Origin: an uncultured Terriglobales bacterium
Lineage (GTDB): Bacteria > Acidobacteriota > Terriglobia > Terriglobales > Acidobacteriaceae
NCBI GenBank assembly: GCA_955652395.1
Contig: CATPBJ010000112.1
Location: forward strand, 1 to 45,220
DNA length: 45,220 bases
Direction: 5' to 3'
A program made the position numbers and the translations under genes. Position 1 is the first letter of the stretch. Every line of letters starts with the position of its first letter. The notes below the pieces were generated by a model. It ran no database searches and was not told the origin of the DNA. It saw only the letters and a program-made list of their open reading frames with translations. Positions 22,185-29,173 of the stretch are shown here, one piece after another.

Positions 22185-22571
22185 TCGATCAGTTCTCCGG
22201 GTTCGAATCTTGTGGTGAAAGACGAACCGTTTATTTTGACGCACCCATACGGCAATGTCCAACTGTATGTCCCGCAGAGGGTTGCTCAAATCCGGACGGT
22301 CGAGTCCATCTCTCGACGAGCCGGTCGTCCATTACCCCGGTACATGTACCTGCAGCCGCAAAATGCACGACGGAGCTACGCCGCTAGTGCTTCCGAAAGG
22401 CAGCGCGCGCCCCGAAATGGCACTAGTCCCGGAATGGACCACGGAGACCTTCGCATACAGGCAGCGTTTGACTACGCTTCACCAGCCACTCGAAAACTTG
22501 CGACGCGCCCATGTGCGACGCGCCCATGAATGTTTCCTCTGTACTCGGATCTTCAGGAAAGGGGATCAGAG
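22185..22571. other. Gene-free divergent region between fabH and the DUF1800 gene
   Basis: 387 nt with no convincing coding sequence; the open frames here lack start signals and family resemblance. It should hold the promoters of both divergent genes, but no strong -35/-10 pair stands out. A GGTTCG...CGAACC inverted repeat lies near 22202-22235. A perfect 15-bp tandem duplication (TGCGACGCGCCCATG) occupies 22499-22528, shortly before the DUF1800 ribosome binding site. Confidence 0.6.
22499..22528. repeat. Perfect 15-bp tandem duplication
   Basis: TGCGACGCGCCCATG is present twice, back to back, at 22499-22513 and 22514-22528, ending 43 nt before the DUF1800 start. A recent tandem duplication or a duplicated binding site. 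Confidence 0.8.
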
Positions 22572-25241
22572 ATGATCGGATCAGCAAAGTCTCCAGGCGC
22601 AAGGTTCGCGGGCGCTATGGTGGTTTCTCTTGTCATTCTTGCATGGTCGGGCTGCGGCGGCGGGATGAGTGTTGGTGGCTCGATCTCGACTTCAAACGGT
22701 ATGACGGTTACGCCTCCGAGCGCCACGGTTCGCGCCGGAGACAGCACCCAGTTCTCGGCCACGGTCACGGGAAACATGAACCAGTCCGTTACCTGGTCAG
22801 TGAACGACGTGGCCGCCGGGAATTCAACCGTTGGCACCATCGATGCCACTGGAAAATACAAGGCTCCGGCCAGCCTCCCCACGCCGAATTCGGTGAAAAT
22901 CAAGGCCACTAGCACAGCTGACAGAACCCTTTCCGCAACCAGTTCTGTGAGTCTCGAGAATCCTATTCCTCAACTCGACACTTTGAGCCCTACCTTCCTC
23001 CCAGTGGGCAATTTCTCACTGAAAGTGGGGGGCGCAAATTTCGTGAACGGTGCCCAAGTGATGTTCGGTGGAACGGCCTTGACCACCACCTATGTGAGCC
23101 CTACCCAGCTTACGGCCAGCGGAACCGCCGCAGCGGCACAAGTAGGAATGGTCAAGATCACGGTCGTGAATCCTGACCCCGGCAAAATCGGGTCTACCGC
23201 CTCCTTGAACGTGCAGGTGGGCGCTGCCGGCCAAGTGTCGGTGCAGGTGATACCAGCCACCGCCGAGATCACCGCCGGCTCCACGTTCCAGTACCGGACG
23301 GCCGTAAACGGCGCGGGTGGCAATACCGCGGTGAAGTGGGCAATTAACGGAATACCGAATGGCAATCCGACGGTAGGCACGATTTCCGCGGGCGGAATAT
23401 ATCAAGCGCCGGCTACGGTCCCGACCCCCAACACGATCCAGGTGCAAGCGACCAGCTTGGCGGATACGACCGCTACCGCCACCGGCACGGCAACCCTTAC
23501 CAACCCGGCACCGGTCGTAACGGCAGTGCTGCCCACGACGATTCCCGTGGGTGCTTTCACCTTGGTGGTCACCGGCCAGCAATTTGCGAATGGTGCGGTT
23601 GTGTCATTCGGGGGCACGTTCCTGACCACCACGTTTGTCTCGCGCAACGAACTCACGGCAACCGGCACGGCAACCAGCGCTCAAGCCGGCACGGTTCAGG
23701 TTACCGTGATCAATCCCGATCCCGGCTCGAAAACCTCCAACGCGTTTGCGCTGGCGGTGGGAACCTCCGCCAATACTTTGAGCGCCGCGGCAGCCGCACG
23801 CCTGCTTGAACAGTCCAGCTGGGGCGTAAACCCACAGACCCTCTCGCATGTGCAAGCCGTGGGCGTGCAGGCGTTCCTCAATGAGCAGTTCGCCGCGCCG
23901 GCTTCGCCCTTCCCCGCGCCCGGAGCTAACGACGATATGTCCTTCGTGCAAAAGCGCTTTTTCACCAATGCGCTAACCGGTCAGGACCAGCTGCGGCAGC
24001 GCGTGGCCTGGGGCCTCTCGCAGATCCTGGTGGCCTCAGCCGTAAAAATAAACAACCCCAGCGCATTCGTGCTTTGGCAAAACATGTTCCAGAACGACGC
24101 CTTCGGCAACTTCTCCACACTACTGACGGACGTCACTCTGAGCCCGGTGATGGGCAACTATCTGGACATGGTGAATAACGATAAGCCCGACCCCACTCGT
24201 GGCATCAACCCTAACGAGAACTTTGCCCGCGAAATATTGCAGCTGTTCAGTATCGGACTGGAAAAGCTAAATCCGGACGGTACGCCGCAACTGGATGGCT
24301 CGGGTAATGCCATCCCGACGTATGGCCAGGACGAGATCATTGGCTTCGCCCACGTGTTCACGGGATGGACCTATCCCACCAAGCCGGCAGCAACCGCTCG
24401 CTTCGGCAATCCTGAATTCTACGGTGGGCCCATGATCCCCTTCGACAGTCACCACGATACCGGCGCAAAACTCCTGCTGAACGGAGTAACGCTTCCAGCC
24501 GGTGGAACCGCGCAGGCTGATCTAACGGCTGCGCTGCAGAACATTTTCAGCCATCCCAACGTGGGCATGTTCATTTGCAGGCAGCTCATCCTGCGCCTGG
24601 TGACGAGCAACCCGAGTCCAGAATATGTAGGCCGGGTGGCCGCCGTATTCGGCGACAACGGCAACGGCGTGCGCGGCGACCTGAAGGCGGTGGTGTCCGC
24701 AATCCTGATGGATCCAGAGGCGCGCCGCGGCGACGATCCGGCTCAGGTTCAACCTAGTGACGGTCACCTTAAAGAGCCCGTGCTGTTCATCACCAACCTG
24801 TTGCGCGCGATGAATGGCGTGTCTGACGGCGCGGTGCTCTCGGATCGGGCTAACGACATGAAGCAGCCGCCGTTCTTCTCGCCGACGGTGTTCAATTTCT
24901 ATCACCCCGATCACGTGATTGCTGGGACTACGTTATTTGGCCCCGAATTCGAGATCTTCGACAACAGCACCAGCGTATCCCGGATCAATTTCGTGAACAC
25001 CCTGGTTTACGGATCGGTGAGCGGGACCACCACCGTGGATCTCTCAGGCTACGTGCCGCTGGCCGCAAACCCGGATCAACTGGTCACCGCCGTCGCGGCC
25101 GTGATGTTGCACGGCCAGGTGTCGGACAACATGCGGAGCACCCTGGTAACTACGCTTTCGGGCATCCCTGACAACACCCGGCGCACCAAGGCCGCTTTCT
25201 ATCTGATCGGCAGTTCATCGCAGTTCCAGGTCGAACACTAA
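22572..25241 (+). CDS. Ig-like/IPT-domain lipoprotein with C-terminal DUF1800
   Basis: 889 residues from the ATG at 22572, preceded by an AGGAAAGGGG stretch. The N-terminus is a lipoprotein-like signal ending LAWSGC (Cys28). Two tandem modules of about 190 residues follow, each a bacterial Ig-like domain (GDSTQFSATV / GSTFQYRTAV, then VGTID or VGTIS) plus an IPT/TIG domain (LPVGNFSLKVGGANF / IPVGAFTLVVTGQQF). The C-terminal half is DUF1800: AAAARLLEQSSWGVNPQTL, the NENFAREILQLFSIGL motif, GQDEIIGFAHVFTGWTY and the FICRQLILRLV helix. DUF1800 proteins almost always pair with a DUF1501 gene, as here with a 13-nt gap. The pair's function is unknown; it is common in Acidobacteria and Planctomycetes. 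Confidence 0.9.
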   Translation: MIGSAKSPGARFAGAMVVSLVILAWSGCGGGMSVGGSISTSNGMTVTPPSATVRAGDSTQFSATVTGNMNQSVTWSVNDVAAGNSTVGTIDATGKYKAPASLPTPNSVKIKATSTADRTLSATSSVSLENPIPQLDTLSPTFLPVGNFSLKVGGANFVNGAQVMFGGTALTTTYVSPTQLTASGTAAAAQVGMVKITVVNPDPGKIGSTASLNVQVGAAGQVSVQVIPATAEITAGSTFQYRTAVNGAGGNTAVKWAINGIPNGNPTVGTISAGGIYQAPATVPTPNTIQVQATSLADTTATATGTATLTNPAPVVTAVLPTTIPVGAFTLVVTGQQFANGAVVSFGGTFLTTTFVSRNELTATGTATSAQAGTVQVTVINPDPGSKTSNAFALAVGTSANTLSAAAAARLLEQSSWGVNPQTLSHVQAVGVQAFLNEQFAAPASPFPAPGANDDMSFVQKRFFTNALTGQDQLRQRVAWGLSQILVASAVKINNPSAFVLWQNMFQNDAFGNFSTLLTDVTLSPVMGNYLDMVNNDKPDPTRGINPNENFAREILQLFSIGLEKLNPDGTPQLDGSGNAIPTYGQDEIIGFAHVFTGWTYPTKPAATARFGNPEFYGGPMIPFDSHHDTGAKLLLNGVTLPAGGTAQADLTAALQNIFSHPNVGMFICRQLILRLVTSNPSPEYVGRVAAVFGDNGNGVRGDLKAVVSAILMDPEARRGDDPAQVQPSDGHLKEPVLFITNLLRAMNGVSDGAVLSDRANDMKQPPFFSPTVFNFYHPDHVIAGTTLFGPEFEIFDNSTSVSRINFVNTLVYGSVSGTTTVDLSGYVPLAANPDQLVTAVAAVMLHGQVSDNMRSTLVTTLSGIPDNTRRTKAAFYLIGSSSQFQVEH

Positions 25242-25254
25242 AGGGAGAACCTCC

Positions 25255-26607
25255 ATGGCATTTTCACGCAGAGACTTTCTGAAAAAGACTTGCTGCACCG
25301 CGGCTGCCGGATTTGCCGCTGCCAGCTTCAACCGGTTTGGCATGGTGAATGCGCTGGCCCAAACCGCCCAAGATTACAAGGCCCTGGTCTGCGTCTTCCT
25401 GTTCGGCGGCAACGACAGCAATAACATGATCGTTCCTCTGAGCAGCAGCGGATACGCCTCCTATCAGCAGATCCGCTCCGTACTGGCCCTCCCCCAGGGC
25501 AGCCTGCTTCCCATTGCTCCGCCCAGCGCGGGTTCGCCTTTTGGATTTCATCCCCGGTTCCCGGAGATGCAGGCTCAGTTCAACCAGAAACATCTGGCTG
25601 TGCTGACCAACCTGGGCACGCTGGTTCGCCCCACGACTCGCGCTCAATATCAGCAGAGGCAGGTCACGCTTCCTCGGAATCTTTTCTCCCACGAAGATCA
25701 GCAGGCGCAGATGCAGACTGCCGCGCTCGATAACAGCGGCCGGACCGGATGGGCAGGGAGAACCGCGGATAAGATCCAATCCATCTATGGCGGGACCTTC
25801 CCCATTATTATTTCGCTGGCGGGATCGAATATCTTTTGCGAAGGCCTGGTGGCCCGCGCCATCGAGTCCAGCGGCGACCCCACCCGATTGCTGTCCGGCT
25901 TCAGCAGTTCCGCCGAATCGCAAAGCCGCCTGTCCGCCCTGCAGAACCTGCTGACCTTCGACACTGGCGTTACATTGATCCAGCAAGCCAGCGGCACCAC
26001 AAACAATGCCCTCCGGGACAGCAAATCGCTGTCCGATGCTCTGGCCGCAGGTCCGGCTCTGGCTACGGTCTTCCCCAACACCGGTCTGGCGCGACAGCTC
26101 AAGCAGGTGGCGCAGATCATTTCCGTGCGCTCCGCCCTGGGAGTGCAACGCCAGATTTTCTTCGTTTCGATCGGCGGTTTCGACACGCACAGTGACCAAC
26201 TGCCTGCGCAGGACAACCTGTTAACCCAGATCAGCGGGGGTATGAACGCGTTCTACCAGGCTACGGTGGAGATCGGAGCGGCCTCACAGGTCACCGCCTT
26301 CACCTTGTCAGACTTCAGCCGGACTTACCAGCCGGACAGCACCTCTGGAACTGACCACGCCTGGGGCGGTCATCATCTGGTCCTGGGAGGAGCGGTCCAC
26401 GGCGGCGATTTCTACGGTACCTTCCCAACCCTGGCTCTCGCCGGGCCCGACGACTCCGGCAATGAAGGACGCTGGATTCCGACGACCTCGCTTGACCAAT
26501 ACGCGGGCACGCTGGCCAGCTGGTTTGGAGTACCGACGGCAGATCTACCAACGATCTTCCCCAATCTGCCGAACTTCTCCAACCAGCTGTTGAACTTTGT
26601 GGGGTAG
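25255..26607 (+). CDS. Tat-exported DUF1501 (sulfatase-like fold) protein
   Basis: 450 residues. The twin-arginine signal SRRDFLKK is followed by a hydrophobic, Ala-rich stretch ending near ALAQ. The body matches DUF1501: LVCVFLFGGNDSNNMIVPL near the N-terminus, FSHEDQQAQMQT, VSIGGFDTHSDQL and, near the C-terminus, TLSDFSRTYQPDSTSGTDHAWGGHHLVLGGAV. The Asp/His-rich motifs resemble metal sites of the alkaline phosphatase superfamily. Export through Tat implies folding, perhaps with metal, in the cytoplasm. GGGAG lies 7 nt upstream of the ATG. With the DUF1800 lipoprotein it probably forms an operon and perhaps an envelope complex. Confidence 0.92.
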   Translation: MAFSRRDFLKKTCCTAAAGFAAASFNRFGMVNALAQTAQDYKALVCVFLFGGNDSNNMIVPLSSSGYASYQQIRSVLALPQGSLLPIAPPSAGSPFGFHPRFPEMQAQFNQKHLAVLTNLGTLVRPTTRAQYQQRQVTLPRNLFSHEDQQAQMQTAALDNSGRTGWAGRTADKIQSIYGGTFPIIISLAGSNIFCEGLVARAIESSGDPTRLLSGFSSSAESQSRLSALQNLLTFDTGVTLIQQASGTTNNALRDSKSLSDALAAGPALATVFPNTGLARQLKQVAQIISVRSALGVQRQIFFVSIGGFDTHSDQLPAQDNLLTQISGGMNAFYQATVEIGAASQVTAFTLSDFSRTYQPDSTSGTDHAWGGHHLVLGGAVHGGDFYGTFPTLALAGPDDSGNEGRWIPTTSLDQYAGTLASWFGVPTADLPTIFPNLPNFSNQLLNFVG

Positions 26608-26640
26608 GAAAAAATCCGGTGAGAGACCAGGCCTAATAAA

Positions 26641-26745
26641 GCCAGGCACCGGACACCCACTGCACACGCAAGAGCCCGTTACCGTTGCTTCCTTCCGGAC
26701 CTGGCGGGGTTGGCGGGAATGCATCGCGCGGGACCGATGCCTGAC
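26641..26745 (-). ncRNA. ffs: Signal recognition particle RNA (small bacterial 4.5S type)
   Basis: Read on the minus strand, the sequence contains the SRP domain IV hallmark AGGTCCGGAAGGAAGCA (around 26687-26703), with the conserved GGAA tetraloop and the asymmetric internal loop bound by Ffh. The 5' CAGGCATCGG and the 3' CCGGTGCCTG pair to close the long hairpin, defining a molecule of about 105 nt. A TAAAAT -10 box (26754-26759 complement) sits 8 nt before the inferred 5' end. It lies antisense to the flanking genes, in the gap between the DUF1501 and transglutaminase genes. Its receptor gene ftsY is at 39303. Ends are approximate. Confidence 0.92.
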
Positions 26746-26753
26746 CGTCTTTG

Positions 26754-26759
26754 ATTTTA
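26754..26759 (-). promoter_or_regulatory. -10 box of the SRP RNA gene
   Basis: TAAAAT on the minus strand (5 of 6 to TATAAT), 8 nt before the inferred SRP RNA 5' end at 26745. No good -35 box is visible at 16-18 nt, so the promoter may depend on other contacts. Confidence 0.5.
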
Positions 26760-26886
26760 ACATCGGTTCCGGACGCAACCTCTCACTCGCCGCTGTCATC
26801 CTGAAGCAAAGCGATTGCTTTCACGGACCGATGCGGAGCGAATCGGTTTCCTCCCTTCCTCTAAGCCAAGTCGCCGAGCTTGGCGC

Positions 26887-26907
26887 GGCCTGCACGGGCG
26901 AGGACGC
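26887..26907. repeat. GC palindrome upstream of the transglutaminase gene
   Basis: A GCGGGCG...CGCCCGC-like arm pair (CGGGCGAGGACGCCCGCG) close to the units at 2918 and 15943. It lies in the untranslated stretch between ffs and the transglutaminase start. Upstream at about 26797-26815 is a second dispersed-type sequence beginning TGTCATCCTGAAG. Confidence 0.5.
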
Positions 26908-26998
26908 CCGCGCCTCCATATCCCGAATCCCCGCCTCTGTGGGGTGCCCTCAGTACTCTTCCCTTCTTGGCCATCATAGCGAACAATGGAGCACAGCC

Positions 26999-29173
26999 AT
27001 GGCTTCCGCTGGCAAATTGCATCCCACGACCCTGCTCGCAGGATCCCTTCAGCGCTACTTTGAGGTCTCCCTCTATCTATTGCTGTTTGCTGGCTTTGGC
27101 ACACTGGCTTCCACCGGAGGGCTGGGTATTGCCACAGTTCTTTTGATAGGTTCGGCGCTTCTCTTCCGCGGATACCTGTTGTTCCGGCGTCGAGCTTGGC
27201 TGATTTCCGAGCGCTGGACTGCCCTCCTTACCCTGGGCTATATGGCGTTTTACCTGGCCGACTATTTTCTGATCTCGGGCGGATTTCTCAACGCCACCGT
27301 CCATCTGGTTTTGTTCGTGATGGTGGTGCGGTTGTTTTCGGCGCAGCGCGATCGCGATTTCTATTTTCTGTCTGTGATCGCGTTTCTGATGGTGCTTGCG
27401 GCGGCGCTGCTGACTGTGGACAGTCTTTTCCTGCTGGCCTTCGCGGTCTTCATGCTGATGGCTGTGGTCTGTTTCATCCTGATGGAGATGCGCCACATCT
27501 CCGCCAAGGCCGGAGTCCATTCGCGGGAGTCAGACATGGGGCCGACTTACCGGAACCTGGCGACCTCGCTGGCTGTAGCCTCCCCCGTACTAGTGCTTGG
27601 TATTCTGTTGAGTGCGGCCGCGATTTTCTTCCTCTTGCCGCGCGCCTCCGCCGGTTATCTGGGGGCGTATGCTCCCGGCGGTGAAATTAGCACCGGATTC
27701 AGCGACACGGTTGAACTGGGACGCATTGGCGAGATCCAGCAGTCCAGTTCGGTCGTCATGCACATTCAGATTGACGGAAATGAGCCGGGCAGCTTCGACC
27801 TGAAATGGCGTGGGGTCGCGCTCGGCAACTTCGACGGCCGCTCTTGGTCAAACAACCGGGCACAGCACCCGCTGTTCCCCCAACTGGACGGTCTTTTCGT
27901 GTTGTCGCGGACGCCTGGCAGCGTTCAGAAAGGGTCTGTCCACCCGATTTACTATCGAGTGTTGATGGAACCCGTAGGAATGAATGTTTTCTTACTCGCG
28001 GGCGCGCCGGAGACTCTGGAAGGCAATTACGGACACCTGGCCATCGACGACGGAGGGGCAGTTTTCGATCTGGATCCGGAACATCCCGTCAATCGCTACC
28101 GGGCATCTTCCAACGTCGCGCAGGCCGCAGCCAGCGACCTCCGCACCGCGGGCAAAACGTATCCGCCCGATGTAGTTTCGAACTACCTCGACCTGCCCGT
28201 GCTCGATAGTCGCATCCCGGGGCTCGCGAAAGAAATTACAGCCTCGGCAGACAGCAATTATGACAAAGCCCGGGCTTTGGAAACCTACCTTCGCACTCAC
28301 TTCGGCTACACCCTGGAGTTGTCGCGCACGGTGCCGCATGATCCCCTAGCCAATTTTCTTTTCGAGCGCAAACAAGGACATTGCGAATACTTCGCCTCCT
28401 CGATGGCGGTGATGCTGCGAACCTTGGGAATTCCGTCGCGTGTCGTAAACGGATTTCGGACCGGCGAATTCAATGATCTGTCTTCGCAATATGTCGTACG
28501 GGCAAGCAATGCCCACTCCTGGGTAGAGGCTTACTTCCCAAACCATGACTGGGTGGCTTTCGATCCGACGCCGGACGCGTCGATTCCGGTGCGCACCGGT
28601 TGGAGCCGGGTGTCACTGTACGTCGACGCCATGGCTTCGTTCTGGCGGGAATGGATCATCAACTACGACGTGGGTCACCAGCGATCCCTGGCGGTGAGCG
28701 CAAGTAGTCGCGGCCGCCAACTGGTTTGGGCTTTGCGGCGTGGGTGGCATCGCCACTATAAAGGGCTTCGGGCGGCGGCCCGCCACACCGGGAGCGAGGC
28801 GGCTGGGTCCCCACTGCGCTGGGGTCTCGGAGGAGTGTTGATTGCGGCCCTGCTTATGTTTGTGGTCAACGCGCCGGGGCTGCTGCAAGCCCTGGGCAAA
28901 ATCCGGCTAGCGGCGCGACCGGAAAGGTCTCCTCGGCGGGCCGCCACGATCTGGTACGAGCGGATGACAGAGAGCGTGGCCCGGCGAGGATGGCGCAAAT
29001 CGCCGACCCAGACTCCCGACGAGTTCGTTTCCCGGATTGACGATGCCGGCGTCCGCGAGAGGGTCGCGGAATTTACCCGGCACTACGAAAGCGCGCGCTT
29101 CGATGATTCCGTCGAGGATGTGCGGCGCTTGCCCGAATTGTATGAAGAAATTTCAGCGACCCGCCGCCGCTGA
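26999..29173 (+). CDS. TgpA-like membrane protein with periplasmic transglutaminase domain
   Basis: 724 residues from the ATG at 26999, which has GGAG 7 nt upstream; the open frame extends to 26597 but that part overlaps ffs and a repeat. The N-terminal 200 residues hold about six or seven membrane helices (DUF3488 type). A soluble beta region follows, then the transglutaminase core with Cys462 in QGHCEYFASSMAVMLRTLGI, His506 in ASNAHSWVEAYF and Asp522 in VAFDPTPDAS. A further helix lies near residue 615-640, and a C-terminal tail resembles the DUF4129 end (TPDEFVSRID). TgpA homologues usually follow MoxR and DUF58 genes; none are here. Predicted periplasmic crosslinking or proteolysis; the substrate is unknown. 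Confidence 0.9.
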   Translation: MASAGKLHPTTLLAGSLQRYFEVSLYLLLFAGFGTLASTGGLGIATVLLIGSALLFRGYLLFRRRAWLISERWTALLTLGYMAFYLADYFLISGGFLNATVHLVLFVMVVRLFSAQRDRDFYFLSVIAFLMVLAAALLTVDSLFLLAFAVFMLMAVVCFILMEMRHISAKAGVHSRESDMGPTYRNLATSLAVASPVLVLGILLSAAAIFFLLPRASAGYLGAYAPGGEISTGFSDTVELGRIGEIQQSSSVVMHIQIDGNEPGSFDLKWRGVALGNFDGRSWSNNRAQHPLFPQLDGLFVLSRTPGSVQKGSVHPIYYRVLMEPVGMNVFLLAGAPETLEGNYGHLAIDDGGAVFDLDPEHPVNRYRASSNVAQAAASDLRTAGKTYPPDVVSNYLDLPVLDSRIPGLAKEITASADSNYDKARALETYLRTHFGYTLELSRTVPHDPLANFLFERKQGHCEYFASSMAVMLRTLGIPSRVVNGFRTGEFNDLSSQYVVRASNAHSWVEAYFPNHDWVAFDPTPDASIPVRTGWSRVSLYVDAMASFWREWIINYDVGHQRSLAVSASSRGRQLVWALRRGWHRHYKGLRAAARHTGSEAAGSPLRWGLGGVLIAALLMFVVNAPGLLQALGKIRLAARPERSPRRAATIWYERMTESVARRGWRKSPTQTPDEFVSRIDDAGVRERVAEFTRHYESARFDDSVEDVRRLPELYEEISATRRR

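Follow-up and report, generated by a model that had tools for sequence, protein, structure and literature searches.

A DUF1800-DUF1501 gene pair from an uncultured Acidobacteriaceae bacterium as a candidate two-part extracytoplasmic enzyme

A contig of 45,220 nucleotides (nt) from an uncultured Acidobacteriaceae bacterium (CATPBJ010000112.1), which is referred to here as the window, encodes two adjacent proteins of the families DUF1800 and DUF1501 on its plus strand (Table 1). Both genes had been placed at these positions by an earlier note made from the sequence alone, and profile searches confirmed their assignment: PF08811 is matched over its entire length (profile positions 1-419 of 419) by amino acids (aa) 410-887 of the DUF1800 protein (277.4 bits, cut-off 26.1), and PF07394 at positions 2-342 of 390 by aa 42-396 of the DUF1501 protein (120.4 bits, cut-off 27). 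The stop codon of the first gene and the start codon of the second are 13 nt apart, and the two genes are therefore inferred to form one transcription unit. An alternative upstream opening of the DUF1800 open reading frame (ORF) lies at 22530, but AGGAAAGGGG is found 5' of the ATG at 22572; GGGAG is found 5' of the DUF1501 ATG at 25255. Profile searches of the source genome (234 contigs with a total of 4.42 Mb and a completeness of 88%) revealed a second DUF1800 gene at a contig end, a DUF1501 fragment at the end of another contig, and a third DUF1501 match elsewhere, which is weak and below the family cut-off. The closest named match of the window locus, with 54% identity, comes from an Acidobacteriaceae metagenome-assembled genome.

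Table 1. Features of the DUF1800-DUF1501 locus, with positions counted in the window.
Feature	Coordinates	Strand	Basis
DUF1800 protein gene	22572..25241	+	889 aa; PF08811 E 3.2e-82; ORF
N-terminal signal, lipobox-like AWSG|C, Cys28 at 22653-22655	22572..22655	+	sequence; regular expression
Module 1, Ig/Big_2-like + IPT/TIG, about aa 39-220	22686..23231	+	NF058597 22962-23219; duplication alignment; AF2, VIA-align
Module 2, Ig/Big_2-like + IPT/TIG, about aa 221-402	23232..23777	+	NF058597 23505-23759; PF01833 aa 314-390; duplication alignment; AF2
DUF1800 helical domain, aa 410-887, motifs NENFARE (aa 548), HHDTGAK (627), HPN (661)	23799..25232	+	conserved columns
DUF1501 protein gene	25255..26607	+	450 aa; PF07394 E 1.4e-34; AF2 pLDDT 90.5
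Twin-arginine motif SRRDFLKK, aa 4-11	25264..25287	+	TIGR01409
DUF1501 catalytic-like domain, conserved D54, H146, D310, H312, D353, R356, D367, H368	25378..26442	+	profile match, alignments

The pairing of the two genes was examined within the phylum and among bacteria at large. The earlier note had described the pair as widespread, and had held that many genomes with either gene alone would speak against a two-gene system. Among 197 genomes of the phylum, in which matches were counted at E 0.001, DUF1800 was found in 101 and DUF1501 in 116 (99 and 106 above the family cut-offs). Within the phylum the pair largely withstood this check: DUF1501 was present in all 101 genomes with DUF1800 (Fisher p 2.6e-40, relatedness ignored), and 15 of the 116 genomes with DUF1501 lack DUF1800. 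In ten of these 15 all DUF1501 matches are weak (best E 6e-5 to 8e-4), and in the other five they are strong. Bacterial genomes were furthermore scanned with an alignment of type-A DUF1800 proteins, the type to which the window protein belongs. By their titles, the best 80 of 583 loci, which were found via type A only, come from Acidobacteria, alpha-, beta- and gammaproteobacteria, Myxococcota, Verrucomicrobia, Lentisphaeria, Bacteroidetes and Chloroflexi, and the pair is thus spread over several phyla. Within these best 80 loci, DUF1501 follows downstream on the same strand in all 78 that leave more than 700 nt of room: 72 times within 600 nt, five times with an open frame that merely opens further upstream, and once 1.0 kb away.

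At the loci of the phylum, DUF1501 accompanies 17 of 17 type-A genes (the window included), four of four further DUF1800 genes, and 26 of 29 sampled genes of a second type, B. Around the remaining three type-B genes (L024, L031 and L034, refetched as L185, L186 and L187), three DUF1501 profiles found no match within 3-6 kb on each side, in stretches of 11-12 kb; type-B copies can therefore stand alone, and the three genomes in question hold other DUF1800-DUF1501 pairs that are adjacent. Downstream of the lone copy of L031 comes a gene for a nucleoside symporter. Where both proteins are present, the distances among DUF1800 proteins correlate with those among their DUF1501 partners (r 0.60 in 66 pairs, against at most 0.16 in permutations), a value uncorrected for shared species ancestry, and the nearest neighbour is common to both proteins in 38 of the 66 pairs.

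In agreement with the earlier note, the window DUF1501 protein carries a predicted twin-arginine translocation (Tat) signal, with TIGR01409 above its cut-off (20.4 bits against 16.7, E 4.8e-4). Among the 78 downstream partners, the pattern RRx[FLIVM], sought within up to 110 residues around the start of the DUF1501 match, occurs in 77, and the last one has RRQW; since this motif was also where the alignment rows had been trimmed, the conservation counts of R5 and R6 in the alignment are partly built in. A structure model was obtained with AlphaFold2 (AF2) from 74 rows, namely the window protein and 73 of the 78 partners, and its predicted local distance difference test score (pLDDT) is given in Table 1. 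The best VIA-align match of this model is an NPP-type phosphodiesterase (Z 18.2 over 243 residues, root-mean-square deviation (rmsd) 3.3), followed by choline sulfatase, PafA and EptC (Z 16.3-17.1), while the best Foldseek matches are sulfatases (E 3.5e-5). DUF1501 is thus predicted to have the alkaline phosphatase superfamily fold, which adds to the metal-hydrolase-like Asp/His motifs that the earlier note had pointed out. D54, H146, D310, H312 and R356 are invariant in all 74 rows, position 353 is acidic (D/E) in all 74, D367 and H368 are kept in 73 of 73 ungapped rows, and S145, which sits right ahead of the helix 146-155 and could be the nucleophile, is found in 72 of 74.

The DUF1800 protein consists of a putative export signal, a beta-rich arm and the C-terminal helical domain. 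The earlier note had proposed an internal duplication in the arm, and chance can hardly account for it: the two N-terminal blocks are identical in 84 of 166 aligned columns and score 427, whereas 500 shuffles averaged 56 and never exceeded 89 (z 41). NF058597, the NCBIfam 'choice-of-anchor Z' repeat, corresponds to the IPT part and matches two stretches of the protein, which account for 2 of the 13 matches in the source genome. The AF2 model (pLDDT 90.7) is all beta across aa 43-396, with aa 40-130 resembling a Big_2 domain (7r3t, VIA-align Z 11.8, rmsd 2.2) and aa 131-220 the IPT/TIG domain of EBF3 (3muj, Z 13.8, rmsd 1.6). Similar Ig-like repeats were seen by eye in four relatives from the phylum. 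However, in a Pfam scan of ten further DUF1800 relatives, TIG was found in only one; two others contain CHRD, one has DUF5648 together with PKD and five Big_7 domains, and six have no further Pfam domain, although one of these is only 567 aa long. The arm was measured in 58 of 96 type-A proteins, the other 38 being without the motif used, and in 13 of the 58 fewer than 120 aa precede the DUF1800 core. The domain content of the arm differs between relatives, and it therefore appears to be exchangeable.

With respect to export, the N-terminus is Sec- and lipoprotein-like, as judged by sight and by a regular expression based on a PROSITE lipobox pattern. AWSG|C fits this pattern, with an unusual Trp at -3, and the window protein is probably exported via Sec as a lipoprotein. 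Of 96 type-A proteins examined, two were too short, and 30 of the 94 testable ones, the window protein included, have a lipobox-like site, which suggests that lipidation is common, not general, in type A. The earlier note had suggested that the Ig-IPT arm could hold the pair at the outer surface; with such a site in about one-third of the proteins and such diverse arms, no general role of this arm is supported. In the helical domain, a polar set is strongly conserved (NENxxRE at aa 548-554, H628, H661, N663 and P681). Searching sequences of solved structures with either the DUF1800 or the DUF1501 protein yielded chance matches only.

DUF1501 genes are also found beside genes for proteins with PSD1 (DUF1553, PF07587), and the partner types were compared. 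A DUF1501 tree of 85 rows (37 of 74 type-A partners, 26 type-B partners, and 22 from beside PSD1, two of which represent the same gene) separates by upstream partner into three clades and needs two partner changes, the minimum possible (support 99/99, 96/92 and 100/100; PSD1-paired clade 100/100). The labels hold at the loci themselves, since a PSD1-type ORF lies beside 22 of 22 PSD1-labelled rows and DUF1800 is present in the locus of every type-B row. H146, D310 and H312 are kept in all 85 rows, and F354 and R356 in 84 of 84 ungapped ones, while Asn takes the place of S145 in 17 of the 22 PSD1-paired rows. PSD1 can be abundant, with 37 matches each in two genomes of the survey. In the source genome (88% complete), two profile searches, one of which did hit other genomes, found no PSD1, and a Pfam scan up to E 0.1 found no match of PF07587 on the window DUF1800 protein.

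Comparison at the profile level revealed a faint resemblance between the two partner families. Profiles of 28 type-B DUF1800 and 26 PSD1 proteins align over 207 columns with a score of 48.9 (probability 70%), compared with maxima of 27.8 in 98 column shuffles and 41.3 in 100 block shuffles and with 18.9 for the reversed profile. With all 95 DUF1800 proteins the score is 40.5 (block-shuffle maximum 36.0). When the PSD1 set is restricted to its 21 long proteins, the type-B score falls to 33.6 (8%), and type A by itself gives no signal (21.1). The C-terminal halves score 35.8, only slightly above the best shuffle (34.3), whereas the N-terminal half of DUF1800 shows no signal against the PSCyt2 part (13.1, with 40 block shuffles averaging 15.7). 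When the C-terminal half of DUF1800 is instead paired with the N-terminal half of the PSD1 proteins, the score is 28.2. A PSD1 hidden Markov model (HMM) gave weak and mixed matches to DUF1800 proteins (best E 0.02). When 681 sequences were searched in the reciprocal direction, the first 17 matches were all PSD1-type proteins (16 of the 26 used and the PSD1-like neighbour from L167), with E values of 0.014 to 5.1, and 16 of the 17 aligned at the same position; however, these proteins are mutually related, and their rank is therefore not independent evidence. The C-terminal half of type-B DUF1800 is thus probably, though not provenly, a remote homolog of PSD1.

Based on these results, we propose that the pair is a two-part extracytoplasmic enzyme for phosphate or sulfate esters, composed of a Tat-exported DUF1501 and a Sec-exported DUF1800 partner, a reading that we regard as an even call. 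Both genes would be transcribed as one unit. DUF1501 would be folded before export, cross the membrane via Tat, and hydrolyse or transfer phosphate or sulfate esters as a metal-binding member of the alkaline phosphatase superfamily; its likeliest substrate would be a glycan or lipid of the envelope or a polysaccharide outside the cell. Fold and context suggest both the chemistry and the substrate. DUF1800 would leave via Sec, probably become lipidated at Cys28, and be sorted to the outer membrane, as Gly at +2 suggests. At the surface, its helical C-terminal domain would serve DUF1501 as a dedicated partner, docking, positioning or regulating it by physical contact, and the two Ig-IPT modules may form an interchangeable spacer or binding arm. 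In favour of the proposal are the adjacency and co-occurrence of the two genes, the predicted fold and conserved residues of DUF1501, the agreement of its tree with the partner types, the distance correlation, and the published link of the pair with chitin synthase operons (PMC5122149).

Several points weigh against this proposal. The query-normalised TM-scores of the DUF1501 model to known structures are low, at 0.28-0.40, with identities of 7-12%, among the 50 Foldseek rows listed, and its residues were matched to known metal ligands by their order in the sequence only. The metal ligands of the second site in the superfamily are an Asp followed by a His. In DUF1501, Phe354 replaces this His in every ungapped row, giving Asp/Glu-Phe where the known ligands have Asp-His, and a second metal site, if any, must therefore differ. 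Furthermore, the PSD1-paired clade does not keep D54, having Ser there in 21 and Ala in 1 of 22 rows. The adjacency counts come from the best 80 of 583 loci found via type A, three of the 29 sampled type-B genes stand without DUF1501, and the distance correlation may partly reflect common descent. In the accessible part of the open-licence literature, we found no report of activity, structure or interaction for DUF1800 or DUF1501, no recognisable biochemical work on the pair, and nothing that connects DUF1800 with PSD1.

Phe354 and the loss of D54 would also suit a DUF1501 that is catalytically dead or purely structural, in which case the pair would be a surface adhesin or matrix-binding complex whose Ig-IPT modules do the work. 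While the adhesin-like beta domains of the window arm and the variation of arms among relatives (CHRD, Big_7, PKD) point in this direction, the invariance of H146, D310 and H312 over three deep clades would be unusual for a scaffold, and some relatives have no long arm; we consider this account unlikely. Alternatively, DUF1800 could be the enzyme with DUF1501 assisting, or the two proteins could act one after the other on a single polymer. This would be in line with the conserved polar set of the helical domain and with the three type-B copies that lack a nearby DUF1501. A weak argument against it is that no enzyme fold was found in DUF1800, in a structure search that spanned aa 41-397 only and thus not the helical domain; the account seems improbable to us. 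An extracellular redox module, which a published paper has proposed for PSC2/PSD1 proteins (PMC2754498, as far as its accessible part goes), is very improbable, and rejected for the window protein: DUF1501 does pair with PSD1 proteins, and the two whose full sequences were inspected (L075 and L079) bear CxxCH, but the window DUF1800 has no CxxCH and the predicted DUF1501 fold is of the esterase type.

PSD1 and DUF1501 genes reach dozens of copies in some genomes. If DUF1501 were indeed a phospho- or sulfo-ester enzyme with a dedicated partner, two large families of unknown function could be assayed together, and the smaller DUF1800 pairs would provide a tractable model.

The genomic surroundings of the pair were searched for a conserved third gene, as the earlier note had suggested, by rough clustering (blastp, 1e-8) of ORFs of at least 110 aa around the 80 type-A loci. 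No neighbour family occurred at one fixed position in more than three of the 80, and the largest clusters comprised seven loci at scattered positions and then four. By this rough method, a conserved third gene for type A was therefore rejected. Four loci, Caulobacterales by title, share two further neighbour families, one of which resembles conjugation ATPases by sight. A long protein family is found near the pair in four other loci, directly downstream in three of them, and one member contains beta-propeller, GSDH, CHRD and Calx-beta domains. In three loci, among them L167, a PSD1-type protein is encoded near a type-A pair. Just 3' of the window DUF1501 gene lies a bacterial small signal recognition particle (SRP) RNA gene (RF00169, 67 bits; 26643-26740, minus strand), which sits within a mechanically called TTG ORF (26597-29173). 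The first Pfam domain of this ORF begins at aa 161, and the SRP RNA inside the ORF implies that the transglutaminase gene probably starts further downstream.

The earlier note had regarded the pair as the best candidate in the window for an undescribed two-gene system. However, the DUF1800-DUF1501 pair, its operon and the Tat motif on DUF1501 were already in print in 2016, tied to chitin synthase operons in other bacteria (PMC5122149, in the part available). The window shares with these operons the same two adjacent Pfam families and the Tat motif on DUF1501. In contrast to them, no chitin synthase was found among the eight window proteins scanned with Pfam, and no neighbour family recurred in the 80 loci, although no search there was aimed at chitin synthase itself. 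The accessible part of that paper makes no mention of an Ig-IPT arm such as that of the window protein.

With the alkaline phosphatase superfamily (NPP, sulfatase, EptC, PafA), DUF1501 shares the predicted fold and an Asp/His set in matching order, but it differs in its low identity and in the Phe at the position of the second-site His, and its nucleophile is at most putative (S145). A closer parallel in gene arrangement is offered by the PSCyt2-PSD1 + DUF1501 modules of the Planctomycetes-Verrucomicrobia-Chlamydiae (PVC) type, in which, as in the window, the partner gene lies directly upstream of DUF1501. PSCyt2 genes are described as usually lying beside a family of unknown genes (PMC5615132, in its accessible part). 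The PVC modules and the DUF1800 pairs have DUF1501 residues H146, D310 and H312 in common, and the PSD1 profile shows a probable remote resemblance to type-B DUF1800 in the C-terminal half of the latter; the PSD1-paired DUF1501 proteins form a separate clade without D54, and the PSD1-type proteins inspected carry CxxCH. Tentatively, and with slightly less than even confidence, we suggest that DUF1800 and PSD1 are branches of one ancient partner family, and that DUF1800-DUF1501 pairs and PVC PSCyt2/PSD1-DUF1501 modules may be the same kind of two-component surface enzyme of the alkaline phosphatase superfamily, in which each DUF1501 clade would have kept its own type of partner and the DUF1800 branch would be the one without the heme motif.

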